This document shows positions 1-11,205 of a stretch of DNA of 36,406 nt, piece after piece. A program made the position numbers and the translations under genes. This stretch comes from an uncultured Porphyromonadaceae bacterium (GTDB taxonomy: Bacteria; Bacteroidota; Bacteroidia; Bacteroidales; Muribaculaceae): positions 1 through 36,406 of the forward strand of contig CAMWMR010000024.1 in assembly GCA_947175425.1 (NCBI GenBank). Direction: 5' to 3'. Under the pieces are notes generated by a model that worked only from the letters and a program-made list of their open reading frames with translations, did no database searches and was not told where the DNA came from. Every line of letters starts with the position of its first letter. Within the stretch, counting starts at the first letter, position 1.

Positions 1-1
1 C

Positions 2-76
2 GGGCGTTTAGCTCAGCTGGTTCAGAGCATCTGCCTTACAAGCAGAGGGTCGGCGGTTCGAATCCGTCAACGCCCA
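2..76 (+). tRNA. tRNA-Val (anticodon UAC)
   Basis: A full cloverleaf can be drawn. The acceptor stem GGGCGTT (2-8) pairs with AACGCCC (69-75), followed by discriminator A76. The anticodon stem TCTGC/GCAGA encloses loop CTTACAA, which gives anticodon TAC and reads GUA valine codons. The T arm is GGCGG-TTCGAAT-CCGTC. The 3' CCA is not encoded, as is common in Bacteroidetes. The gene abuts an accessory region on its 3' side. Confidence 0.96.
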
Positions 77-80
77 CTCA

Positions 81-109
81 ACTCCACCGATTGTTCGGTG
101 GAGTTTTTT
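81..109 (+). terminator. Rho-independent terminator of tRNA-Val
   Basis: A perfect 10-bp stem (ACTCCACCGA at 81-90, TCGGTGGAGT at 95-104) with loop TTGT is followed by a T run at 104-109. It lies five bases past the tRNA end. Confidence 0.9.
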
Positions 110-124
110 GTGTTTATACCCCCC

Positions 125-142
125 GCCACCCGCGAGAGCGCA
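125..142 (+). repeat. Direct repeat copy 1 (tRNA side of the island)
   Basis: GCCACCCGCGAGAGCGCA here recurs at 9071-9088 in the same orientation with one mismatch (A/G at the thirteenth base). Both copies follow a terminator T run. They bracket the accessory region 149-8936, so they may be island borders, or a small dispersed intergenic repeat. Confidence 0.6.
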
Positions 143-148
143 AAAAAA

Positions 149-172
149 GGGCGCATAGTAAAAAACCTGTGT
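149..172 (+). repeat. Left terminal inverted repeat (ISAon1-type end)
   Basis: Perfect 24-bp inverted match to 7128-7151. It lies about 50 bp beyond the stop codon of the transposase C-terminal remnant (223-225), where the 3' end of such an element should be. Confidence 0.85.
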
Positions 173-183
173 TTAGGCGTAGA

Positions 184-203
184 TTTGGGTCAGCGGATTT
201 TTC
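184..203 (+). repeat. 20-bp direct repeat, copy 1
   Basis: Begins TTTGGGTCAGCGG; the same 20 bases recur at 304-323, exactly 120 bp further on. Copy 1 lies in the 3' untranslated part of the ISAon1 remnant. Confidence 0.85.
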
Positions 204-222
204 CGGTGGGCGCCAAGAGATG

Positions 223-306
223 TCAAGAATATATAGTGGCCAGTCTGAACATAAAGAACTTGATGTCGCCGACTCCCCGGAACTGTGTTCTGAACGTTTT
301 TATTTT
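223..306 (-). pseudogene. ISAon1-type transposase, C-terminal remnant
   Basis: The minus strand encodes a 27-residue tail, KIKTFRTQFRGVGD then IKFFMFRLATIYS, ending in TGA at 223-225. This FRGV..FF.FRL..IY ending is characteristic of ISAon1-type transposases as I know them. Reading upstream in frame gives an immediate stop at 310-312, so the remnant begins at the breakpoint near 306. The matching N-terminal part lies 4.6 kb away at 4879-5103. Roughly two thirds of the transposase is missing between the two pieces. Confidence 0.75.
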
Positions 307-323
307 GGGTCAGCGGATTTTTC
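304..323 (+). repeat. 20-bp direct repeat, copy 2, at the ISAon1 breakpoint
   Basis: Second copy of the repeat at 184-203. It starts exactly where homology to the transposase C-terminus stops, so it probably marks the rearrangement junction. Confidence 0.8.
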
Positions 324-392
324 GGGGTCGAGAATGAATCGAAATCTTAAATGAAAGAGCCGTGGCTCACCGTGAACTTCTCGCTCATTTTA

Positions 393-424
393 TTTGTCTA
401 ATTATTACTAATTAGTTATCTTTG
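393..424 (+). promoter_or_regulatory. higBA promoter with operator dyad in the spacer
   Basis: -33 element TTTG (393-396), 20-base spacer, -7 element TATCTTTG (417-424): a near-perfect Bacteroidetes primary sigma promoter. The spacer holds a perfect dyad CTAATTA-TTAC-TAATTAG (398-415), the natural site for autorepression by the HigA-like protein. Only four bases separate the -7 element from the ATG at 429, so the transcript should begin at or next to the start codon. Confidence 0.8.
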
Positions 425-428
425 CACC

Positions 429-794
429 ATGAATTCTGAGGAAAGCACCGAGCAATATGTCCGCATTGTATATAAAACGCGTGAATTTGAGACGTTTTAT
501 AGCTCGTTACCGTCCAAGACGCAGACTAAATTTGACTACGTTATAAACGTAATTTCAACGATTTATAACGTGCCCGGCAAATTTATAAAGCATCTTGAAA
601 ACACTGACCTCTACGAAATGAGAGTGTCGGTTGGCACTAACGAGTATCGCACTGTCCTCTTTGCTATCGACCACGATAACGTGATAGAAGCAAAGAGCAT
701 AATATTGCTCAACGCCTTTCTAAAGAAAGATAACAGAGACTATCGTAAACAAGTCGAGATTGCTCTCTCAATATTAAACAACCTGGAATTATGA
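429..794 (+). CDS. HigB/RelE-type toxin (Gp49-like)
   Basis: A 121-residue protein with the order typical of the phage-derived Gp49-like/HigB family (RelE superfamily): an N-terminal helical part, then a core KFIKHLENTDLYEMRVS and EYRTVLFAI, then the LLNAFLKKD segment that in this family is usually LL.aF.KK. Members are ribosome-dependent mRNA interferases that stop growth when the antitoxin is lost. The stop overlaps the start of the antitoxin gene by ATGA (791-794), so the two are translationally coupled, toxin first, as in higBA loci. The promoter predicts a leaderless mRNA. The pair sits inside the ISAon1-ended element and may stabilise it. Toxicity itself is inferred. Confidence 0.85.
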   Translation: MNSEESTEQYVRIVYKTREFETFYSSLPSKTQTKFDYVINVISTIYNVPGKFIKHLENTDLYEMRVSVGTNEYRTVLFAIDHDNVIEAKSIILLNAFLKKDNRDYRKQVEIALSILNNLEL

Positions 795-1105
795 GACAGA
801 TAAACCCCGAAAAGTTAGCCAAACTCTCAACCGCCAACTCAATGCTTGATGAGAAATACGGCGCACCCGGCACTCCCTCGCGCGAGCAATTCAACGAGAA
901 ATCTCTCGCGTGGTTCTATGGTAATATGCTCCGCGAACGTCGCAAGGAACTCAACCTCACACAGAAACAGCTCGCCGAAAAACTCGGTCGCGAGCAGAGC
1001 TATATCGCCCGCGTTGAGAACGGCAAAGCCGACATTCAACTGTCGAGCTTCTTCCGTATCGCAGCCGTCCTCGGCATCCAGTTCATCCCAACTTTCGTAA
1101 ATTAG
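791..1105 (+). CDS. HigA-like antitoxin, XRE-family HTH
   Basis: A 104-residue protein. Residues about 50-97 form a Cro/C1 (XRE) helix-turn-helix: RKELNLTQKQLAEKLGREQS, YIARVENGKADIQLSSF, then RIAAVLGI. The first 45 residues probably form the toxin-binding part. It overlaps the toxin gene by four bases. By family knowledge it neutralises the toxin and represses the operon, most likely through the dyad at 398-415. No terminator is seen right after it; a short inverted repeat lies at 1151-1181. Confidence 0.86.
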   Translation: MRQINPEKLAKLSTANSMLDEKYGAPGTPSREQFNEKSLAWFYGNMLRERRKELNLTQKQLAEKLGREQSYIARVENGKADIQLSSFFRIAAVLGIQFIPTFVN

Positions 1106-1349
1106 CGATTATTTGGGGACGCGAATAAGCGTTCGTGTCTCAATATTATCTATTTTTGTGAGTGCTGAACGTGCAAAAATAAACATGTAGAACACATTAA
1201 TCGGATTGTAGATAAAAGTATTACTTCAAATTTCATAAGCTATTGTTTTTTAAGAATATAGAAATTGGTGTGTAGACTAATTCATTAATTATGTGTATTG
1301 AATCACACATCCAATTTCTGTAATTTTACATAAAAAAACAATAGTCATT
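1106..1349 (+). other. AT-rich intergenic region before the TonB receptor
   Basis: No gene is visible. An 8-bp inverted repeat (TATTTTTG at 1151-1158, CAAAAATA at 1174-1181) follows higA; each arm also looks like a -7 element, the two facing each other. A larger dyad fills 1240-1344. No full -33/-7 promoter for the receptor could be found. Confidence 0.6.
1240..1344. repeat. Long interrupted inverted repeat ending 5 bp before the receptor start
   Basis: Outer arms CTATTGTTTTTTAA (1240-1253) and TAAAAAAACAATAG (1331-1344) match at 13 of 14 positions. Inner arms GAAATTGGTGTG (1261-1272) and CACACATCCAATTTC (1304-1318) match apart from a three-base insertion. The centre of about 31 bases is unpaired. 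It could be a leader hairpin, a regulator site or an old invertible segment. Confidence 0.7.
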
Positions 1350-3701
1350 ATGCTTAAACAAATATCATTATTTATTGTGCTATTTACTTGCACGATTTGC
1401 GTTGCAGCGCAAACCGGATCTACGCCTGTTTGGCTATCCGGAACGGTTTGTTTTCAGGATAGCACTAATTACCCATACGAATTAATACTTAAATCGGGCA
1501 GCAGCATCGTAGCCGATCATTCTTTCAATAAAGGGGGCTTTTTGATTAAGTCCACAGTCATGCCGACTTCTATATCGGTTAAGGCTTTCGGTCATATACC
1601 CGTTGAAAGAAATCTCACGCAATCTAAGGTAACATATAGAAATGATACAATAATACTTAATGAGCCGTTCACACTTAAATATAATACGCACGTGCTTAAT
1701 GAAGTTGTAGTTACGGCACAAAAGTTGAAAATTCAGGAAGAAGGTTTAGACTACACTATCTCAAACATACAAGGCAGCGACTTGGCCGATGCCGGCACTA
1801 TGCTTGATATGATGGCATGGGTGCCTGGATTGTCGTTGGATGCTGCTGAGAATATTCAAGTATTCGGCGTTTCGGGTTCGCCTCTCGTCTATATCAACGG
1901 AATTAAAGTTACAGATAAAACCAAATTAGCATCGCTTTCTTCCAATACAGTTAAGAAGATCGAGGTCATACGCGCTCCCGGAGCCGAATATCCCACCGGC
2001 ACAAGCTCAGTCGTTAAAATAACAACAGCTATTCCAGTGAAAGACATTGTAAATGCCAACCTCATAGATAAAGCCAATCAAAGAAATCGGTTCAGCAACC
2101 GCACTACCGCAAATGCGTTCGGCTCTATAGGGAAATTTGACTTGCTTGCATCAGTAGGATACTACAACGGAAATAGCAGGCAGTCAGCTACCGCGACAGA
2201 AGCTATCTTCCCAAAAGATGAATCGCTTCTGCGGAATATCAGTACTTCACAAGAAGATTTAATCCATACATCCCGTTGGAATTGGCTCGCAGGTGCTACA
2301 TTCCATTTGTCCGATATTGACGAGTTTCAGTTAGAGTATTCCGGCAATTCATCATTTCGACACAGAGACTTCGTCACCGAACGTTCGACTACAATTAACG
2401 ACGTAACAGAAATTACAAATTACGATTCAAGGAATTCCTCAAAGCCTGAAAACCATACCTTGTTGGCTAACTATTCTCACGAATTTTCAAAATCGAGTCT
2501 TAATATTTCCGCTACTTATAATTATAAGTTGTCAAGTAGTAATGAAGGGGTATTTATTATGCCCGATAATATTTTAAGCGAGACCAATAAGAATCGCTCT
2601 ACATATAATATGTGGACGCTACAGGGCGATTATTCTTGGAAGTTTCTGAATAAACACCAACAGAGCGTCGGTCTTTATGGAGGACGTTCAGAGAATAATT
2701 CAAATGCCGATTATACCTTTATGGGTGTACAGAATGTTAATGGTTCTGTGTCATGGGGAGAATTTTACTATTCATCGAGCTGGGATGTCAAAAGCTTTGC
2801 CATAACGCCCGGTGTACGTTTCAGATATGAAAATCAGCAAAGTAACTCATTTATTGAATCCAATAACTCATCTTTTGATAAATCATACTTTAATGTGGTG
2901 CCTCAGTTGAGCATATTCCATCGCTTTACCAAAAATTTTGCAATGAATCTATACTACAAGTATAGCTACTCCCTTCCAAGTTTTTCGGAGCTAAGTCCGG
3001 CGATTACACTTTCCAACCTCATTTATTACGAAACCGGAAATCCCGATTTGAAGATTCCTCGCCGCCACAATATCTCTTTAGTATTTAATCTCCCCAAATT
3101 CTCTATTGTAGCGGAATATACTGCCATACGCAATAAGATTGTAGAGATTACCTCACCTATTGATAATTCCGAATACTTTATGACAAGACCCATAAACATG
3201 TCGGGGAATTATTATCTGTCATTAACTGGTAGTTATAATCTAAATGTTACTAACAAATTTCGTCTTTATGCAAGAGCTCTTTTGAGAAGAACACATACCG
3301 AATACTACTATCTCGACAAGATACAACGAAAGAATAAAATCTTTGCTTTGCTTTCAGTAAATGCAAGTTATTACATCCGTCGAAATTTCAGTGTTTTCAT
3401 GAACGCAATTTATGCATCGCCTCAGCTTATTGATAATACGGATGTTGGATATACTTGTGACATTTCCTTTGGCAGCAACCTCCAACTCCTGAGATCAAGA
3501 CTAACACTAAGATTTGCAGCTAACGACATTCTTGCCCGTTCGGTAACTCCATATTGGACCTCGTTCTCACCTAACCTATATCGAACCCGCAGAAACCATT
3601 ATGACACACGAGGCATTACGTTGACAGCGACCTATCGTTTTACATTTGCAAAGAAAAAATATTCAGAACTTGATAACGCAGATGACTACGACAGAATGTG
3701 A
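1350..3701 (+). CDS. TonB-dependent outer-membrane receptor
   Basis: 783 residues with a signal peptide (MLKQISLFIVLFTCTICVAA, cleaved near AQT). Residues about 25-105 look like a CarboxypepD-regulatory-like beta sandwich. The plug domain follows (about 110-225), with LNEVVVTAQK at its start and KKIEVIRAPGAEYPTGTSS near its end. The rest is a beta barrel of the outer membrane protein family seen in Bacteroidetes (PF14905-like), rich in alternating aromatic strands. It should import a ligand across the outer membrane using TonB energy; the ligand is unknown and no SusD partner is next to it. A regulator gene starts 20 bp after it. Codons are far more AT-rich than in the genes beyond 9.2 kb, which suggests transfer. 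Confidence 0.88.
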   Translation: MLKQISLFIVLFTCTICVAAQTGSTPVWLSGTVCFQDSTNYPYELILKSGSSIVADHSFNKGGFLIKSTVMPTSISVKAFGHIPVERNLTQSKVTYRNDTIILNEPFTLKYNTHVLNEVVVTAQKLKIQEEGLDYTISNIQGSDLADAGTMLDMMAWVPGLSLDAAENIQVFGVSGSPLVYINGIKVTDKTKLASLSSNTVKKIEVIRAPGAEYPTGTSSVVKITTAIPVKDIVNANLIDKANQRNRFSNRTTANAFGSIGKFDLLASVGYYNGNSRQSATATEAIFPKDESLLRNISTSQEDLIHTSRWNWLAGATFHLSDIDEFQLEYSGNSSFRHRDFVTERSTTINDVTEITNYDSRNSSKPENHTLLANYSHEFSKSSLNISATYNYKLSSSNEGVFIMPDNILSETNKNRSTYNMWTLQGDYSWKFLNKHQQSVGLYGGRSENNSNADYTFMGVQNVNGSVSWGEFYYSSSWDVKSFAITPGVRFRYENQQSNSFIESNNSSFDKSYFNVVPQLSIFHRFTKNFAMNLYYKYSYSLPSFSELSPAITLSNLIYYETGNPDLKIPRRHNISLVFNLPKFSIVAEYTAIRNKIVEITSPIDNSEYFMTRPINMSGNYYLSLTGSYNLNVTNKFRLYARALLRRTHTEYYYLDKIQRKNKIFALLSVNASYYIRRNFSVFMNAIYASPQLIDNTDVGYTCDISFGSNLQLLRSRLTLRFAANDILARSVTPYWTSFSPNLYRTRRNHYDTRGITLTATYRFTFAKKKYSELDNADDYDRM

Positions 3702-3708
3702 TTTTTCG

Positions 3709-3716
3709 TAACTTTG
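3709..3716 (+). promoter_or_regulatory. -7 promoter element before the membrane regulator
   Basis: TAACTTTG fits the Bacteroidetes -7 consensus and is followed by exactly four bases (TAGT) and the ATG at 3721. No good -33 element is seen 19-22 bases upstream, so this is only a candidate leaderless promoter. Confidence 0.45.
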
Positions 3717-3720
3717 TAGT

Positions 3721-4827
3721 ATGAAGCTACTGAAATTCATATATCTCACAATTTTATTGGTTTTGCCCATACAAATGTTGGGCAACACCAATAAGCATAT
3801 TCCATTGGATACTGTAGAAGTTATCACTTTCCGTGATACAGTATATAGTGGGAATTTGCCTGCTATAGAAATAAGCATGGGAACGTATCATAACTTCCAC
3901 GGGGCTACTACGGTTGGATATAAAATGATACTGCGGGGAGAAGAACTCGATATCAAAGGAGCCCTCTTGTACAAGGAGGATCCTGAGTCAAATGATGCAT
4001 ATCCGCTGCAGCTTATATCGCCGTTCGATATTCATTTTGGTGATTCTACTGATAATAGGCGTATCGATCACATTTATGTAAAACACAAGTTCCCCTTTTC
4101 CGATTGTTTCTCTGAAGATGATTCGTTAGTAATAATTACCAACAAAGGTAATTTTACGCTATATATGAGCGAGGATAAACGGTCTGCCGCTAAATATACC
4201 CCTATGCTCGAATCTCTTAATAAGGAGCTGTCTGACACAGAGTCTGATTTAGAAAACACACGGAATAAATCTTACATGATTATAGCCATAATTATTTCTA
4301 TATGTTTAATCGTGACTCTAATTGTATTTCTGTATTTTAGGAAGTATCAGCGCGTCAAATCCGAACAAATGGACAAGCTTCTTATGCTCATATCTGAGCA
4401 CGAGATGAACAACCGTCAGCTCAAAGCCAAAGTGTCGGATCTGATGCGCAACAGTTTCAATACAATCAACCAGTTGTGTTATGACTACTTTGAAATGGCA
4501 GACACCAGTTTCCTGAGAAATAGTATTTATACTAAGGTTGAAGAAGAGATTGAGAGATTAAAGTCACATGAGCAACTGTCTCAATTCGAGAAAGTCCTTA
4601 ATGAAAACTGCGATGGAATAATACTGCGCATAGAGGCGCAAATTCCGCAGATTTCAGATGCAGACAAAACGTTGTTGATATATCTATATTCCGGCTTGTC
4701 AGCAAGGACTATATGCGTATTGATGGATATTCAGCTTAAAACTTTCTATATGCGTCGACTGAGGCTCAAGAACAAAATAGAATCATCCGATGCACCGGAC
4801 AAGGAAAGATTTATATCTATTATGTGA
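3721..4827 (+). CDS. Membrane-anchored helix-turn-helix regulator
   Basis: 368 residues. Residues 1-22 form a signal peptide or first membrane helix. About 23-180 should be periplasmic, with no domain I recognise. A strong membrane segment follows (YMIIAIIISICLIVTLIVFL, about 182-201), then a charged, coiled-coil-like cytoplasmic part (about 205-300). The C-terminus has a LuxR/sigma-4-like helix-turn-helix: DADKTLLIYLYSGLSARTIC then VLMDIQLKTFYMRRLRLKNK. This arrangement recurs in Bacteroidetes as a one-component transmembrane regulator. Placed 20 bp after the TonB receptor, it probably controls the receptor or senses its ligand; that link is inference. It is AT-rich like the receptor. Confidence 0.72.
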   Translation: MKLLKFIYLTILLVLPIQMLGNTNKHIPLDTVEVITFRDTVYSGNLPAIEISMGTYHNFHGATTVGYKMILRGEELDIKGALLYKEDPESNDAYPLQLISPFDIHFGDSTDNRRIDHIYVKHKFPFSDCFSEDDSLVIITNKGNFTLYMSEDKRSAAKYTPMLESLNKELSDTESDLENTRNKSYMIIAIIISICLIVTLIVFLYFRKYQRVKSEQMDKLLMLISEHEMNNRQLKAKVSDLMRNSFNTINQLCYDYFEMADTSFLRNSIYTKVEEEIERLKSHEQLSQFEKVLNENCDGIILRIEAQIPQISDADKTLLIYLYSGLSARTICVLMDIQLKTFYMRRLRLKNKIESSDAPDKERFISIM

Positions 4828-4878
4828 TGAAATATGTAATCAAACAAATACTCTCGCACTCTTGTGCAAAGGCACCAG
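4828..4878. other. Short junction between cargo and ISAon1 remnant
   Basis: No gene or terminator is seen. Homology to the ISAon1 transposase stops near 4882, so the right-hand rearrangement breakpoint lies here. No repeat matching the left breakpoint (near 306) is visible. Confidence 0.5.
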
Positions 4879-5103
4879 TTATAGTTCGCCGCGACTGAGC
4901 GACGTCTCGTCTATGCTCAGTCGCGGGCCTATGTTCTGAGGAAACACGCGCCATTGATCCGCGTGCAGACCCTCGGCGCTGTCTTTCCAATCCCAGTATC
5001 CGCTCAGGTGTCGCTTATACTGACGCTCGAACAAGTCGCCGTCTATGCCGAAGAACCATTCAAGAGAGCGGCCCGTAGTCGGGTATCTGTCCAAGCATAT
5101 CTT
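4879..5103 (-). pseudogene. ISAon1-type transposase, N-terminal remnant
   Basis: The minus strand encodes LDRYPTTGRSLEWFFGIDGD, FERQYKRHLSGYWDWKDSAE and FPQNIGPRLSIDETSLSRGE followed by L and a TAA stop. The LSIDET.LS.GELYT block is a hallmark of ISAon1-type transposases; here it breaks off after GEL. At the other end the reading frame runs into the IS110 element near 5103. Joining 5103 directly to 6684 restores an in-frame N-terminus that begins at ATG 6717-6719 with MKSEITDWGTIH, so the IS110 element interrupted this gene at about codon 12. It has lost its middle and cannot be functional. Confidence 0.8.
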
Positions 5104-5115
5104 CTATATAACCAA

Positions 5116-6507
5116 CTATGCGAATGCAACCTCTAATTGACGATTAAGTTTGTCTAATCTTCTCTGGGTCATCATGATTTTGCGTTCAAGCAGGTCTCTT
5201 TCGTTTATGCCGGTCTTACTTTCGTCATATTCGGTACGGCTTTTTATCATTGTGAAGAATATCTTTGCAATTTTATGGGCTGTCGCCACTATTGCCTGAC
5301 TGTAGCCGCAGCGTGACTGTATGCGTCTGAAATAGTAGCCCAGAGTAGTTTTGTTTCGTTTTAGTGAGTTGGCACACAACCGGAACACTTGCCCGCAAAT
5401 ATTGGTTTTCTTCGGGACTTTACTGGAAAGCAGTTTGCCTCCTGACACTTTGTTGTTCGGGACAAGATTCAACCAACTGCAGAAAGAGTGACAGCTCTCA
5501 AACTTATCCGCAAAATTGTGCCCGAGCTCTCCTATTAATTGCAACAGAGATATTGCACTCATGCCGGGTATTGCCATAATATTGACTTTCCAAATGTCGA
5601 AAGCGTATTTTTCTACGTCAAAATCGACAGCATTCTTTTTCCCGTTTTTCTTTTTGCATCGCGGCAAATTGTCATCTGAAGGATGGCCAAGTTCGGCTCG
5701 GTATCTGATGAGGTGCATTTCAATCTGCCTGTCGCATTTATTGACTTGTTCCTGAATGAAATTGTAAAGATCAAAAGCCTGCTCCAGTTCAAAAAGATGG
5801 TCTTCCGCCCATGAACCCTCAAGTGATTTGGCTATTTCTTCTTTTGATGCCTTGCAGTTGTCTTCTGCAAGCGCGGCAAGTTCCCTTGGATCATGGTTGC
5901 CACTTATGATAGCTCTGATAATGGACATTCCGGATTTACCCAATAAATCGCTTATGACATTACTCAGTTTCAGATTCATTTGTTCCATCGCTTTCTGCAT
6001 ATGTAGTGCTTCTCTACTTGATGACTGTAGCAGATTGGAGCGGTGACGCGTGAGATTGCGTATGGCCCTTGCCTCATTCTCCGGCTGGAAGCTACATTTG
6101 AGCAATCCATAGCTGTGAAGCATCATCAGCCATTCGGCGTCGGCTTCGTCAGTCTTCCTGCCTGAGTAGTTTTTTACATCGCGAGCGTTCACAAGAACGA
6201 CATCGAATCCACGCTCCTTTAGGATGAAATATAATGGAAGCCAATAGACTCCGGTGGATTCCATAGCAACAGTATCTATACGGCAGGATTTCAACCAATC
6301 GGCTATCTGTTTCAAATCCTGCGTGAAGCAGCCGAATGTTCGGTTGCATTCACTGTCACGATCTTCGGGAACACAAACTTGCATTTCCGAGGATGCGATG
6401 TCAATACCGGCTGCATTGGGGTTGACAACCTTGAGTTTCTTTCCAGTGGCCGTCTTTTCAATTTTCGCTTTCTTTGGCATATGTATCTTATGATTAGAAG
6501 AATGCAA
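5116..6507 (-). CDS. IS110-family transposase (DEDD recombinase)
   Basis: 463 residues from the first ATG; a second ATG at 6480 (MPKKAKIEK) is equally plausible. The N-terminal DEDD Tnp_IS110 domain shows GIDIASSEMQV (Asp36), AMESTGVYW (Glu83) and GRKTDEADAEWL (Asp120, Asp123). A helical region follows, then a transposase_20 domain with IMAIPGMSAISLLQLIGELG and SWLNLVPNNKVSGGK, ahead of the serine region LLSSKVPKKT. The C-terminus has a charged coiled coil. Family members excise and insert DNA using a structured guide (bridge) RNA. All catalytic acids are present and the frame is complete, so it may be active. Confidence 0.93.
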   Translation of the reverse strand: MHSSNHKIHMPKKAKIEKTATGKKLKVVNPNAAGIDIASSEMQVCVPEDRDSECNRTFGCFTQDLKQIADWLKSCRIDTVAMESTGVYWLPLYFILKERGFDVVLVNARDVKNYSGRKTDEADAEWLMMLHSYGLLKCSFQPENEARAIRNLTRHRSNLLQSSSREALHMQKAMEQMNLKLSNVISDLLGKSGMSIIRAIISGNHDPRELAALAEDNCKASKEEIAKSLEGSWAEDHLFELEQAFDLYNFIQEQVNKCDRQIEMHLIRYRAELGHPSDDNLPRCKKKNGKKNAVDFDVEKYAFDIWKVNIMAIPGMSAISLLQLIGELGHNFADKFESCHSFCSWLNLVPNNKVSGGKLLSSKVPKKTNICGQVFRLCANSLKRNKTTLGYYFRRIQSRCGYSQAIVATAHKIAKIFFTMIKSRTEYDESKTGINERDLLERKIMMTQRRLDKLNRQLEVAFA

Positions 6508-6683
6508 GTTCGCGGTCGCATCACGATAGGTATTCTTCTATACGGCATCTACGGGCCAATTATCATTCTACGGACGGCGAAGCCAGACTTTTAACTGAAG
6601 TATATCCAAGATGTACTAAGGCTTGTGTACTTGCATCATAAAATACTAACGGATGTGCCAGCTCAAATGGTATGATGAGTTTA
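6508..6683 (-). ncRNA. Candidate IS110 bridge RNA region
   Basis: This 176-base non-coding stretch precedes the IS110 transposase on its own strand, the place and size where the IS110 group carries its bridge RNA. It holds TCTTCTATA (plus strand 6534-6542), identical to nine bases that straddle the inferred left junction of the element (5100-5108), as a guide loop might. No fold was computed, so the RNA boundaries are a guess. Confidence 0.5.
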
Positions 6684-6715
6684 ATGGATAGTGCCCCAAT
6701 CGGTTATTTCTGATT

Positions 6716-7084
6716 TCATTCCACCGGAACGGCGGTCGGTACTTTTAAAAAAGCCGCAAACTCTTTCGAGAAGCGGGTGCCTTCGGCTACTAAATCCCAG
6801 CGTCGGCTGACGCTCTTGTCGGTCTCTGTATCGACCCAGCGACGCCGCTTGATATGAAACGACATCTTCCGCCCTCTGACGGGATAATCGCGCACTATGC
6901 TTTCCTCATAGAATCCGTTAGAACGCAGCTGCCCCGGCTTGTAGCCGTCCACTCCGTTGTCACGTTCTTCCAACGTGACGTCAAGCGTCTCTTTGGTCTT
7001 TTCGACCTTGACAACCTCAAAATATTCCACCATTTCTTCGGGCAGAAGGCATTCTGCCAATTCTATGTACGGATTCTTTTCCAT
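6716..7084 (-). CDS. ISAon1-type transposase N-region protein
   Basis: 122 residues from the ATG at 7084. A longer frame back to a TTG at 7105 is unlikely because that codon lies in the -7 box at 7103-7110. The sequence MEKNPYIELAECLLPEEMVE, the YEESIVRDYPVRGRKMSFHI block, the basic RRRRW-like motif KRRRWVDTETDKSVSRRWDL and EFAAFLK near the end match the small first ORF of ISAon1-type elements, which probably supplies the DNA-binding part of the transposase. Its TGA overlaps the ATG of the second ORF by ATGA (6716-6719), but that second ORF is cut by the IS110 element after 12 codons. It is intact but without a working partner here. Confidence 0.85.
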   Translation of the reverse strand: MEKNPYIELAECLLPEEMVEYFEVVKVEKTKETLDVTLEERDNGVDGYKPGQLRSNGFYEESIVRDYPVRGRKMSFHIKRRRWVDTETDKSVSRRWDLVAEGTRFSKEFAAFLKVPTAVPVE

Positions 7085-7102
7085 TGCGCTTTTTATTTCT
7101 CG

Positions 7103-7110
7103 CAAAGGTA
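7103..7110 (-). promoter_or_regulatory. -7 element of the ISAon1-type element
   Basis: The minus strand reads TACCTTTG, a consensus -7 element, 18 bases before the ATG at 7084 and just inside the right terminal repeat. No clear -33 element is seen. Confidence 0.5.
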
Positions 7111-7127
7111 ATATTTTTATCCGATTT

Positions 7128-7151
7128 ACACAGGTTTTTTACTATGCGCCC
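7128..7151 (-). repeat. Right terminal inverted repeat (ISAon1-type end)
   Basis: Perfect inverted match to 149-172. It lies 43 bp upstream of the N-region protein start, as expected for the 5' end of the element. A6 follows outside at 7152-7157. Confidence 0.85.
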
Positions 7152-7194
7152 AAAAAATTTTATGTTAATCGTACAGTAATTCAAATCAAAGTGC

Positions 7195-7230: not shown

Positions 7231-8385
7231 ATGATATTAGAAATCGCTCTCACCAACTTTTTTTCGATACATGAGAAAATAACTTTGGATTTACAAGCTG
7301 CCAACATCCAGACAAAGGAGGCGCGGGCTCTTGCCGATAATACATTTGCTATCGGCAACGAAAGACTGCTCAAAACCGTAGCCATCTATGGTGCAAACGC
7401 CTCAGGCAAGAGTAACATAATTAAGGCGGTAAAAGCTGCGGTTGACATGATACTCAACTCACACAATTATAATGAGGGAGACAGTTTCGGCTTCAAGCCG
7501 TTCAAGTTCGGTGATAAAAACGCTCCGAGTGAATTCTATATCCGTTTCATTATTGACAGCATAGAGCATGAATATTCATTCACCTGTACACGGAACGAAA
7601 TAATAACGGAAAGTCTATATTACTATCCCAAGGGCAGACGTGCGTTAATATTCTCTCGTGATGAGCGTATATCCGGCGGAAAGAAAGATAAATATGAATT
7701 CACCAACGTGATACGTCGTCCAATGGATGTTGCCTCCAACACGTCTCGCAAAACACTGTTCATATCCCGTGCAAGCCAAATGGACAGGGAAAAGGCCAAG
7801 GAGGTATACAGGTGGTTCAACGAACAGTTGGTATTCAGTTATCGCGGCAGAACAACCGTATCTATCGACCGCTTTCTCGGCGACAACAAAGATGCCGTTC
7901 TACGAGTGCTTAAAGCCGCCGACAGCGATATTGTTGAGTTTACATATAAAGACGGCGAACTAACCACATTCCACCGTCGCAATCCGGCTTTGCCTTTTGA
8001 CTTCAACACCGAGGAGTCGGAGGGTACTAAAATTCTGTTCAAAATAATGTTGACGGTAATGGATGTGGTGCGTAACAACAAAGTTATGTTTCTCGACGAA
8101 GTGGAAACAAGCCTGCACACCCGCCTGGTGCAATACCTTATCAACCTGTTCCATTCAAGTAAATCGGCACAGTTGATATTCACAACGCACAATACTCACC
8201 TGCTTGATATGACACGCTTCCGCAAAGACCAGATTTTCTTTGTAAACAAGCGCGATGACAGCTCATCCGACCTTTATTCGCTGTTTGACTACAAAGATTT
8301 TCGTGAGAAAATGGATCTTGAAAAGGCATATCTTCAGGGGCGTTTTGACGCCGTGCCATATATCAACGAATTTGAGAACATCTGA
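7231..8385 (+). CDS. RloA-like AAA-family ATPase (abortive-infection type)
   Basis: 384 residues of an SMC/ABC-like AAA_15/AAA_21 ATPase. The N-terminus MILEIALTNFFSIHEKITLD is the usual opening strand of the family. Walker A is GANASGKS (residues 54-61), Walker B VMFLDEVETSLH (about 285-296) and the histidine switch FTTHNTHLLDM (about 316). A short insertion between them replaces the long coiled coil of true SMC proteins. The next gene, two bases on, is a RloB-like TOPRIM protein, so the two should work as one unit. The same pairing is known for RloA/RloB genes in restriction loci and, to my knowledge, for the lactococcal AbiL system. A role in phage defence is inferred. Confidence 0.85.
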   Translation: MILEIALTNFFSIHEKITLDLQAANIQTKEARALADNTFAIGNERLLKTVAIYGANASGKSNIIKAVKAAVDMILNSHNYNEGDSFGFKPFKFGDKNAPSEFYIRFIIDSIEHEYSFTCTRNEIITESLYYYPKGRRALIFSRDERISGGKKDKYEFTNVIRRPMDVASNTSRKTLFISRASQMDREKAKEVYRWFNEQLVFSYRGRTTVSIDRFLGDNKDAVLRVLKAADSDIVEFTYKDGELTTFHRRNPALPFDFNTEESEGTKILFKIMLTVMDVVRNNKVMFLDEVETSLHTRLVQYLINLFHSSKSAQLIFTTHNTHLLDMTRFRKDQIFFVNKRDDSSSDLYSLFDYKDFREKMDLEKAYLQGRFDAVPYINEFENI

Positions 8386-8387
8386 CT

Positions 8388-8936
8388 ATGGCACGAAAAG
8401 TGAAACAAGCGCGAGGGAAAAAGATGAACCCTACTTTCTTTGTTTTCTGCGAAGGGAAAACTGAGGCGGCATACGTTGACTTGCTGCGTCGCAGTTTCCG
8501 GGTACCGGTTGAAATCATAGCGCGAGTAAGCGACTCCAACATTTCACAACCTTACATCGACCGATGTAAGCGCGAAAGATTTACAACGCAGGAAGATAAG
8601 ACTTTTTTGATGTTCGACCTTGATGTGCCGGGCATGATGGAACATTTGCGTAAAATTAAAGACGCGGTATTGCTACTCTCCAATCCCTGTATTGAATACT
8701 GGTTTGTCCTGCATTATAAAGATATCAATAAAGAAATGTCATCTGCCGAATGTCTTGCATTGCTTAAAGGCATAGATGCGGATTATAGGAAAGGTGCATT
8801 CTCAACGGTTATGAAAAAGATCTTGACAGATGCTATTGAGGACGCCGCAAAACGAGCCAAATCCAAAGAAGCGTACACTAATCCGTCATCTACAATTAAT
8901 CTACTTACCGACGAGCTTATTAAAGCCAAGAAATAG
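8388..8936 (+). CDS. RloB-like TOPRIM protein
   Basis: 182 residues with the RloB-like order. KKMNPTFFVFCEGKTEAAYV carries the TOPRIM glutamate (Glu22), FLMFDLDV the DxD pair (Asp77, Asp79), and SNPCIEYWFVLHY is the family signature between them and the C-terminal helices. TOPRIM proteins of this kind are thought to be nucleases released or activated by the ATPase partner upon phage infection. The gene follows the ATPase by two bases and is closed by the terminator at 8997-9060. The lysine-rich N-terminus (first 12 residues) may bind nucleic acid. Target and trigger cannot be told from sequence. Confidence 0.84.
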   Translation: MARKVKQARGKKMNPTFFVFCEGKTEAAYVDLLRRSFRVPVEIIARVSDSNISQPYIDRCKRERFTTQEDKTFLMFDLDVPGMMEHLRKIKDAVLLLSNPCIEYWFVLHYKDINKEMSSAECLALLKGIDADYRKGAFSTVMKKILTDAIEDAAKRAKSKEAYTNPSSTINLLTDELIKAKK

Positions 8937-9070: not shown

Positions 9071-9088
9071 GCCACCCGCGAGGGCGCA
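9071..9088 (+). repeat. Direct repeat copy 2 (far side of the island)
   Basis: GCCACCCGCGAGGGCGCA, one mismatch to 125-142, same orientation, and again just after a terminator. Confidence 0.6.
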
Positions 9089-9240: not shown

Positions 9241-11205
9241 ATGAACATCGCTAAACGTATTGTTTTATTCGGCGCTGCAATAGCTATATCGCTATGCGCG
9301 GCAGCCAATAATAACACCTATTATTCAAAGATGACAGTTACCGCCGAACCGACGGGACATGGAAAAGTATATGTGTCGACATCTTCGGGAGATACCCCTA
9401 ACTACAACTCCGAAACATCAACGGCATCAAACACATCAAGCTCAACCGGCAACCACACTTACTATCTCTATGCAAAAGCCGAACCCGGTTATCAGTTCAA
9501 AAACTGGACAACATCAACCGGTAGCCAGGTTGGAACAACCGAGAGTCTGACCCGAACGATTACAACAACCGATGATAATAAAAGCGAAGCCACTGCAGCA
9601 ACGGCAGAATACATTGCAAATTTTGTAGAACGTACACGAGCCATTGTTGCCATAACAGACAATGGAACTGTCACCGTAAGCCCAAAAGACAACAAAATAG
9701 GCGATGATGTAACCGTAACATTCGCTCCGCCAACATATGGAGGCACTGAATACGTTCCCGACCTTGCACTCGATTTTGACGGTTGCTACGACTCGGAGGG
9801 CAATTTAATATCCAAGGAACAGAGCTTTACGATTAAAGCCGAAAAAATGATGGATTTGACAGGCTCATTCAGCATGACTCCGCGTGTTACAAAAGAAAGG
9901 GGCTACTATCGTGTTCTCAGTTGCTACAATGCTCCGATACGTGTATCAGGAAATGCCACTATAAGTATTAGTGCAAGTTCAACGACTGCAGTATCGGTAC
10001 ACGCCGACATCACCAATATAAAGAATCCGTTAGGGCACTCGATTGGTCGTGACGACAGCAAGGCACTTAACCGCAACTTTTACGATGATCCCGCCGCTAT
10101 TTTATATATGGAAGGTACATTAAACTCAAGCAACAGCCAAACCTACAAAGTAGGGAACACTGTTCTGGATAAAGTATCCATGACAGCTCAGGGAATCTCT
10201 TTATTCGATGTTATAAAATTTACCGCGATTTTTAGCACTCCAACTGTATCCTTAAGATGGGCGGCTCAATCGGGACACTACAAACTTGTAGCCTCGATTG
10301 TAACTATAAAAACCCTTTGGGACAGCAACATCAATAAACATAACGACGTTGTCAAAATAGGGAAAGATACATCCGACGACTTTAACTCGAACTGTACCCT
10401 CCAGCCTATTGATGAAGAAAATGCCGACCGTTTTTGGTTCGGCGCCTGCCCTACGGAGAAAATGTACTACGACGGAGGTTACTGGACATCCATGTACGCC
10501 TCGTTCCCCTTTGAATGCTATGAGCCCGACGGTGTGGAAGCATATATTATAAATGAGTTCAAAACCGACGGCGAGGAAAACCTGCTTGTGCTCTCGCGCA
10601 TTGAAAACGGCATTGTACCTGCCGCTACACCCGTGTTGCTCAAATGCCGCCAATGGACCGACACATCGGAGTTCTTCGATCTTACCAAAAAGAAACCTCT
10701 CGCGCCGCAGAACCGCCTCATTCCCCTCTTTCCCGATGACGAACGCATCGACGCCACTGTCGCCGAGGGCAACCTGCTCAGCGGAACCTACAATCTGCTC
10801 AACGGAGTTCCCGCACCTGACTGGACTGATGTCGAGAATTATATGCCCGACAAATACGACGCCTCCAAGCACCGCATTTTCAGTGTGAATGCCGAAGGCC
10901 GCGTAGGTTTCTACAAGCAGCCGGCCGGCTATAAATTCTGGATTGAGAATCCCGATGAGGTTACCGAAATGTCGCTGCGTCCCAACCGCGCCTATCTTGA
11001 TTTGAGCAAGCTTCCCTCGGCTTCGCTGCAAGGTGCGCCGTTCCGCATTATAAACGAGAACGAAGCCGCAGGTATCGACAATATAGTTGTAAAACCCGAA
11101 GCTCCGGTTCGCGAGGGTATTTACGACCTCTACGGCCGCCGCGTGGAACACATGGTTCCGGGCAACATCTACATAGTAAACGGCGTAAAGACTATTGCAC
11201 GTTAA
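9241..11205 (+). CDS. Secreted repeat-containing protein, unknown function
   Basis: 654 residues with a signal peptide (MNIAKRIVLFGAAIAISLCA, cleaved near AANNN). Residues about 30-110 resemble an InlB B-type (Bacteroides-Listeria) repeat: VTAEPTGHGKVYVS, YAKAEPGYQFKNWTTSTG. A second divergent unit follows (IVAITDNGTVTVSPKDNKIG). The large middle part has no domain I recognise. The C-terminus, GIYDLYGRRVEHMVPGNIYI then VNGVKTIAR, is the short end module common on secreted Bacteroidales proteins (type IX sorting-like in shape, although such proteins also occur in species without that system). The start is the first ATG after the predicted promoter. A bidirectional terminator follows. Its location is likely the cell surface or periplasm. 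Confidence 0.78.
   Translation: MNIAKRIVLFGAAIAISLCAAANNNTYYSKMTVTAEPTGHGKVYVSTSSGDTPNYNSETSTASNTSSSTGNHTYYLYAKAEPGYQFKNWTTSTGSQVGTTESLTRTITTTDDNKSEATAATAEYIANFVERTRAIVAITDNGTVTVSPKDNKIGDDVTVTFAPPTYGGTEYVPDLALDFDGCYDSEGNLISKEQSFTIKAEKMMDLTGSFSMTPRVTKERGYYRVLSCYNAPIRVSGNATISISASSTTAVSVHADITNIKNPLGHSIGRDDSKALNRNFYDDPAAILYMEGTLNSSNSQTYKVGNTVLDKVSMTAQGISLFDVIKFTAIFSTPTVSLRWAAQSGHYKLVASIVTIKTLWDSNINKHNDVVKIGKDTSDDFNSNCTLQPIDEENADRFWFGACPTEKMYYDGGYWTSMYASFPFECYEPDGVEAYIINEFKTDGEENLLVLSRIENGIVPAATPVLLKCRQWTDTSEFFDLTKKKPLAPQNRLIPLFPDDERIDATVAEGNLLSGTYNLLNGVPAPDWTDVENYMPDKYDASKHRIFSVNAEGRVGFYKQPAGYKFWIENPDEVTEMSLRPNRAYLDLSKLPSASLQGAPFRIINENEAAGIDNIVVKPEAPVREGIYDLYGRRVEHMVPGNIYIVNGVKTIAR

Follow-up and report, generated by a model that had tools for sequence, protein, structure and literature searches.

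A 7-kb stretch between ISAon1-type ends is probably a decayed insertion sequence

We analysed a stretch of 36,406 nucleotides (the window), positions 1 to 36,406 of contig CAMWMR010000024.1 in assembly GCA_947175425.1, from an uncultured Porphyromonadaceae bacterium that GTDB places in the Muribaculaceae. The host genome comprises 2.5 Mb in 64 contigs; the window is contig 24 and starts at a tRNA-Val gene. Beside that gene, at positions 149-7151, lies a 7-kb feature that the original prediction described as transposon-like, with ISAon1-type ends carrying a toxin-antitoxin pair, a TonB receptor and its regulator. In a corrected anatomy we counted five mobile-element pieces in these 7 kb, and the description that fits the feature best is that of a decayed insertion sequence (IS) whose two ends survive on either side of nested and rearranged DNA. 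Its appearance is that of a common accumulation of mobile-element debris, not of a working 7-kb transposon. Below, IS-A is the element of the outer ends, IS-B a second ISAon1-type element and IS-C an ISAs1-family element. Loci L040 (1430 bp), L041 (1432 bp) and L042 (1403 bp) are full-length IS-A copies with both ends, and L120 is an intact IS-B of 1462 bp with terminal repeat GGGTCAGCGGATTTWYC, whose transposase scores 417 bits on NF049917. The comparison set had one genome per species. The features run as follows:

150-183, minus strand: left end of IS-A, the 23-bp terminal repeat (150-172) and last transposase codons, 34 bp; matches the start (34-35 positions) of L040, L041 and L042 at 94% identity
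187-306, minus strand: C-terminal end of IS-B, with terminal repeat GGGTCAGCGGATTTTTC and transposase remnant 226-306; aligns with the first 121 bp of L120
307-326, plus strand: second IS-B terminal repeat with no IS-B body behind it; 17 exact bases, 307-323
327-365, strand not assigned: last 39 bp of IS-C, body missing; about 95% identical to other listed places
429-794, plus strand: HigB-like toxin (Gp49/DUF891); PF05973 35.1 bits, cut-off 23.9, no NCBIfam match
791-1105, plus strand: HigA-like antitoxin (HTH_3); PF01381 52.8 bits, TIGR03070 under cut-off
1350-3701, plus strand: TonB-dependent receptor, from matches to plug and OMP_b-brl_3 domains
3721-4827, plus strand: predicted regulator paired with the receptor; role assigned by eye, no family match over cut-off
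4880-5103, minus strand: N-terminal part of the IS-A transposase; 4880-5106 is 81% identical to L040 805-1031, and 4879-5094 covers NF049917 positions 1-68
5104-6741, minus strand: IS110-family element, transposase 5116-6507; NF033542 229.5 bits, cut-off 140, inserted in IS-A at the CTTTTTTAAAAG junction
6742-7150, minus strand: right part of IS-A, the N-region gene and terminal repeat 7128-7150; 79% identical to L041 1023-1432

The inverted repeat at 149-172 and 7128-7151 is real and perfect over 24 bp, longer than any in 100 sequences simulated with a first-order Markov model of the first 9.5 kb, where the longest exact inverted repeat had a median of 14 and a maximum of 20 bp. The IS repeat within it is 23 bp long (150-172 and 7128-7150). 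The base beyond varies between copies, being G in 31 of 46 distinct ends from the fetched loci, which are part of all the places found; the 24th base is thus target, and position 149 is not IS. Bases adjoining IS-A ends are A/T-rich, with A5 or T5 runs in 11 of the 46 flanks. A-runs lie directly outside both ends of the 149-7151 unit, as had been noted, and fit a target preference of IS-A.

Of 297 sampled family genomes, 50, counting the own one, contain the 24-base pattern at zero to three mismatches. Exact copies were found in six stretches of two metagenome-assembled genomes (a Bacteroides sp. and an uncultured Muribaculaceae). The original prediction had named as a refutation a common dispersed repeat unrelated to ISAon1 ends; the repeat is indeed dispersed, but as ISAon1-type ends. 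Both genes are open only in L041; L040 lacks an open N-region frame, and the transposase of L042 lies in two frames. The L041 transposase scored 490 bits on NF049917 (cut-off 250) and matched Pfam DDE_Tnp_ISL3, and it reached 150 bits on the general ISL3 model, under its 180-bit cut-off. Judged by these matches, the outer ends, whose 23-bp repeats match those of family members, are those of an ISAon1-type, ISL3-like IS of about 1.43 kb, as first proposed.

The fetched copies showed two further properties of these elements. In L041, L042 and L120, the N-region and transposase genes meet at a common CTTTTTTAAAAG; the transposase frame differs from that of the N-region gene, a possible sign of slippage. 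About six of the 46 IS-A ends (L010, L016, L020, L023, L028 and L031, in family relatives) adjoin part of another IS-A terminal repeat, giving tandem ends, and L125 shows the same arrangement for IS-B. IS30 is described as inserting beside its own inverted repeats (PMC9333248).

IS-A keeps 667 of its roughly 1430 bp (34 bp on the left, 224 and 409 bp on the right), and about 770 bp are gone. Relative to L040, 150-183 corresponds to positions 1-34, 4880-5103 to sequence from 805 and 6742-7150 to sequence up to 1430. The pieces are collinear and non-overlapping and match full-length copies. An N-region gene and a transposase N-terminus do lie inside the right end, as the original prediction had it: the former (6716-7105) scored 133.3 bits on NF049916 (cut-off 55) and takes its last codons from IS110 DNA, and the latter is limited to NF049917 positions 1-68 to 1-77. 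Of the ISAon1-type arrangement, in which an intact DDE transposase comes after the N-region gene, the window retains the N-region gene and a transposase fragment. Besides this fragment no IS-A transposase was found in the genome assembly. The two known ends were the only whole-genome copies of the 24-bp repeat at up to three mismatches, with no third IS-A end, and the intact copy with identical ends proposed as a check was not found.

The IS110-family element, missed in the first reading, is 1638 bp long and parts the N-region gene from the transposase start; the same site without the interruption is visible in L040. It encodes a DEDD transposase with a C-terminal Transposase_20 domain (PF01548 and PF02371 over cut-off), and CTT is common to both of its boundaries. 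A short shared core at the boundaries is expected of IS110 elements. A search for bridge-RNA guides, run without a control, gave only scattered matches of 5-7 nucleotides besides the donor end itself. We found one copy in the own genome at the thresholds searched, and relatives, own included, in two of the 297 sampled family genomes by DNA (E <=1e-30) and in three by protein (E <=1e-70). As to the idea that the element might be guided to ISAon1-type elements, the relative in genome G276 sits between two long open reading frames that we judged by eye not to be ISAon1-like. Plasmid relatives of the protein were all less than 60% identical. Among viral contigs, no relative of the IS110 element or the receptor was confirmed and the left junction had no match.

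On the left side, the transposase piece at 223-306 had been taken for the C-terminus of the same transposase. We rejected its assignment to IS-A: L120 aligns across 187-306, where a separate terminal repeat starts at 187, and the remnant, NF049917 positions 301-327, belongs to IS-B. Further evidence is that the IS-B end recurs near contig ends of the own genome. The end in the window is 91% identical over 56 bp to another on contig C44, and the repeat lies near the ends of contigs C5, C14, C44 and C59, a pattern to be expected where a multicopy element interrupts the assembly. No IS-B transposase was found in the assembly. Two smaller pieces were also missed at first, the lone IS-B repeat at 307-323, in the same orientation as the first, and the ISAs1-family end at 327-365. 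The latter has matches of about 95% at eight other listed places in five family genomes, and at L200 an ISAs1-family transposase (158 bits, cut-off 70) lies beside a similar end. At L093 (G262:C17), no base separates an exact IS-B terminal repeat from the start of an IS-A-like one, and IS-A and IS-B may land in each other's ends.

The stretch between the transposase pieces measures about 4.55 kb, close to the 4.6 kb of AT-rich cargo first described, although its G+C content is low only in part (higBA 44%, spacer 28% and receptor-regulator 39%, against 48% for the window). Matches to the DNA of 310-1349 were found in 38 of the 397 family genomes sampled, a count that includes the own genome and some genomes where just the IS end matched. 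At 87%, the best match to higBA is in G259, with an M13 peptidase gene on one side and an FeS-assembly gene on the other; the rest of window 1-5200 had no match at that locus. The receptor was found in four of 49 genus genomes, own included (E <=1e-60), with identities of 79% in G258, 55% in G266 and 54% in G299, and the regulator adjoins it at L075, L076 and L077. In G258 the receptor-regulator pair has 78% DNA identity. The 14 kb read there contained no match to higBA, to the IS-A and IS110 proteins, or to the proteins of the AAA and RloB genes that follow the feature in the window; elsewhere in G258, on other contigs, there are an IS-A end and a homologue of the AAA gene. When the receptor, higBA and the IS110 element were searched separately, none lay inside IS-A ends in the loci compared. 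Cargo without the ends, which the original prediction had said would count against it, thus exists in part, for higBA and the receptor-regulator pair each by itself. We rejected a single captured block as the simplest view of the cargo; because these units occur apart in relatives, it is a patchwork.

The same end pair around different cargo, which had been suggested as a check, was absent among the places listed for the 50 of 297 sampled family genomes with the pattern. There, the only inward-facing pairs on one contig besides that of the window were the full copies of 1.4 kb, three in number. In relatives, many copies of IS-A lie at contig ends, and larger pairs may be hidden. The tRNA-Val gene matched in 42 of the 49 genus genomes, with matches that stop within base 88 of the 148-base query; one weaker match on this side reaches base 113. 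On the other side, at 7231-8936, an AAA_21 ATPase gene is followed by an RloB-like gene, possibly as a defence pair. Other genomes have nine homologues of the AAA gene. In four the match begins at 7177 and in one at 7182; another two, with matches from 7261 and 7500, are truncated by the contig or match inside the gene only, and the last two have no DNA match. Counting the own genome, the ATPase occurs in ten of the 49 genus genomes (E <=1e-40), with DNA homology from about 50 bases upstream in five.

The outer flanks, CAAAAAAAG and CAAAAAAT, agree at six of eight positions and have a common 7-bp run, CAAAAAA. Among 1030 flank pairs from different loci, which are not independent and from which the few same-locus pairs were removed, agreement at six or more of eight positions occurred in 18 and a common 7-bp run in two; the likeness is less rare once one flank is known to be an A-run. 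The flanks resemble a decayed target duplication, which is modest evidence that both IS-A ends arrived together. This likeness fits a gutted single copy and a composite moved as one alike. L041 has a perfect 8-bp duplication (CAAATTCG), and L040 and L042 have none. As only one of these three full copies with both flanks read has a perfect duplication, a missing one means little.

On balance, we think it probable that the feature derives from a single copy of IS-A that was broken up by nested insertions and deletions. A single ISAon1-type IS of about 1.43 kb would have landed in an A-run beside the tRNA-Val gene. The IS110-family element would have entered at the junction of the N-region and transposase genes, and IS-B would have inserted into the final transposase codons. 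Where about 770 bp of the transposase had been, other IS ends would have come to lie, along with higBA and the receptor-regulator pair. For the 4.5 kb of non-IS genes, our guess at the likeliest route is rearrangement via copies of IS-B and the ISAs1-family element. The outer terminal repeats survive, and the wreck therefore resembles a 7-kb transposon. The identities and order of the pieces, the missing 770 bp and the lack of an intact transposase in the assembly are observed directly; the single original copy and the order of events we infer. We favour this history because the IS-A pieces are collinear, the flanks alike, four other IS pieces lie within the IS-A ends, the cargo units are separate elsewhere and there is no other IS-A transposase. 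Several points weigh against it. The flanks are not an identical duplication, and the preference of IS-A for A/T runs (the 11 of 46 flanks) could explain part of their likeness; that two of the three full copies also lack a duplication makes this a weak test. The 34-bp left remnant is too short to prove that both ends stem from a single copy. Receptor-regulator genes inside an IS require an extra event.

The remnants of IS-A (1-34 and 805-1430) do not overlap and are compatible with one or two copies. Two same-orientation copies might have carried the cargo beside the tRNA-Val gene as a composite transposon, later trimmed inside. The two outer ends match each other perfectly over 23 bp, and duplication-like flanks are also expected from movement as a unit. 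Such a composite would require two independent inner deletions, its cargo is a patchwork of separate units, and the places listed for the 50 genomes showed no pair of this kind, although copies at contig ends could hide composites; we regard it as rather unlikely. Of the two alternatives originally offered, capture of cargo inside the transposase gene of an IS is the better one, but a cargo-carrying transposon is unsupported and the left transposase piece comes from IS-B. Two unrelated IS-A insertions beside ordinary chromosomal genes, each truncated and never moved together, would be another history. IS-A is common in the family (50 of 297 sampled genomes), and the receptor-regulator locus does adjoin ordinary genes elsewhere. 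Flank likeness as close as that seen here is rare between different loci (18 of 1030), however, and no relative carried the cargo between the tRNA and AAA-RloB genes in the loci read, which leaves this history improbable.

There is also little to recommend a unit like a transporter IS, 7 kb long, stabilised by higBA and still mobilised in trans by the IS-A transposase of another element. In its favour, the terminal repeats are intact on both sides, with mismatch-free matches in other genomes. Against this, the genome lacks an intact IS-A transposase and a third IS-A end, no second copy was seen, and the places listed for relatives gave no example. Movement of the 7-kb unit in trans is possible on paper and unsupported, and we doubt strongly that the surviving ends form a functional 7-kb non-autonomous transposon whose toxin-antitoxin pair and receptor-regulator genes could be moved in trans by ISAon1-type transposases of related bacteria. 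Had the unit moved, it would be a route that spreads outer-membrane receptors with an addiction module.

Two observations concern the surroundings. A 17-base repeat, CCACCCGCGAGNGCGCA, occurs at 126-142, just outside the left end of IS-A, and at 9072-9088, after the AAA-RloB genes, framing an 8.9-kb stretch beside the tRNA-Val gene. These are two matches in the window where 0.01 were expected, and the repeat was absent from the fetched loci of other genomes; the own genome was searched in the window only. It could mark the edge of an island, or it could be dispersed. A 654-residue protein (9241-11205) has two adjacent copies at another place in the genome (G000:C12:11990-15731), one partial and 96% identical, the other 45%.

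Among known systems, ISAon1-type elements (NF049916 and NF049917; DDE_Tnp_ISL3) are likened to IS-A by the 23-bp terminal repeats, the order of N-region and transposase genes, the AT-rich target and a length that is the same as in full copies in relatives. IS-A in the window differs in the loss of 770 bp of transposase, the IS110 element between the two genes and the left end cut by IS-B. We found no paper on the name ISAon1 in the literature searched. The RNA-guided IS110 family (NF033542) is matched by a transposase over cut-off and boundaries with only a short CTT core; the element in the window is a single copy at the thresholds searched, and the search for its guides gave only scattered 5-7-nucleotide matches besides the donor end. 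Transporter ISs and composite transposons, as described in PMC9330008, are similar in that IS ends bracket genes without a role in transposition, including a toxin-antitoxin pair. A transporter IS holds passengers and transposase within one end pair, whereas we found no intact IS-A-type transposase inside the ends or elsewhere in the genome; the window further differs from these systems in its lack of a functional transposase of the same IS inside, its patchwork cargo and in that no second copy or empty site was seen. A perfect pair of terminal repeats can thus persist around unrelated insertions and mimic a transposon. The analysis records the ends of two ISAon1-type elements in this bacterial family, and the target preference of one, and the feature itself is a new instance of things already known.

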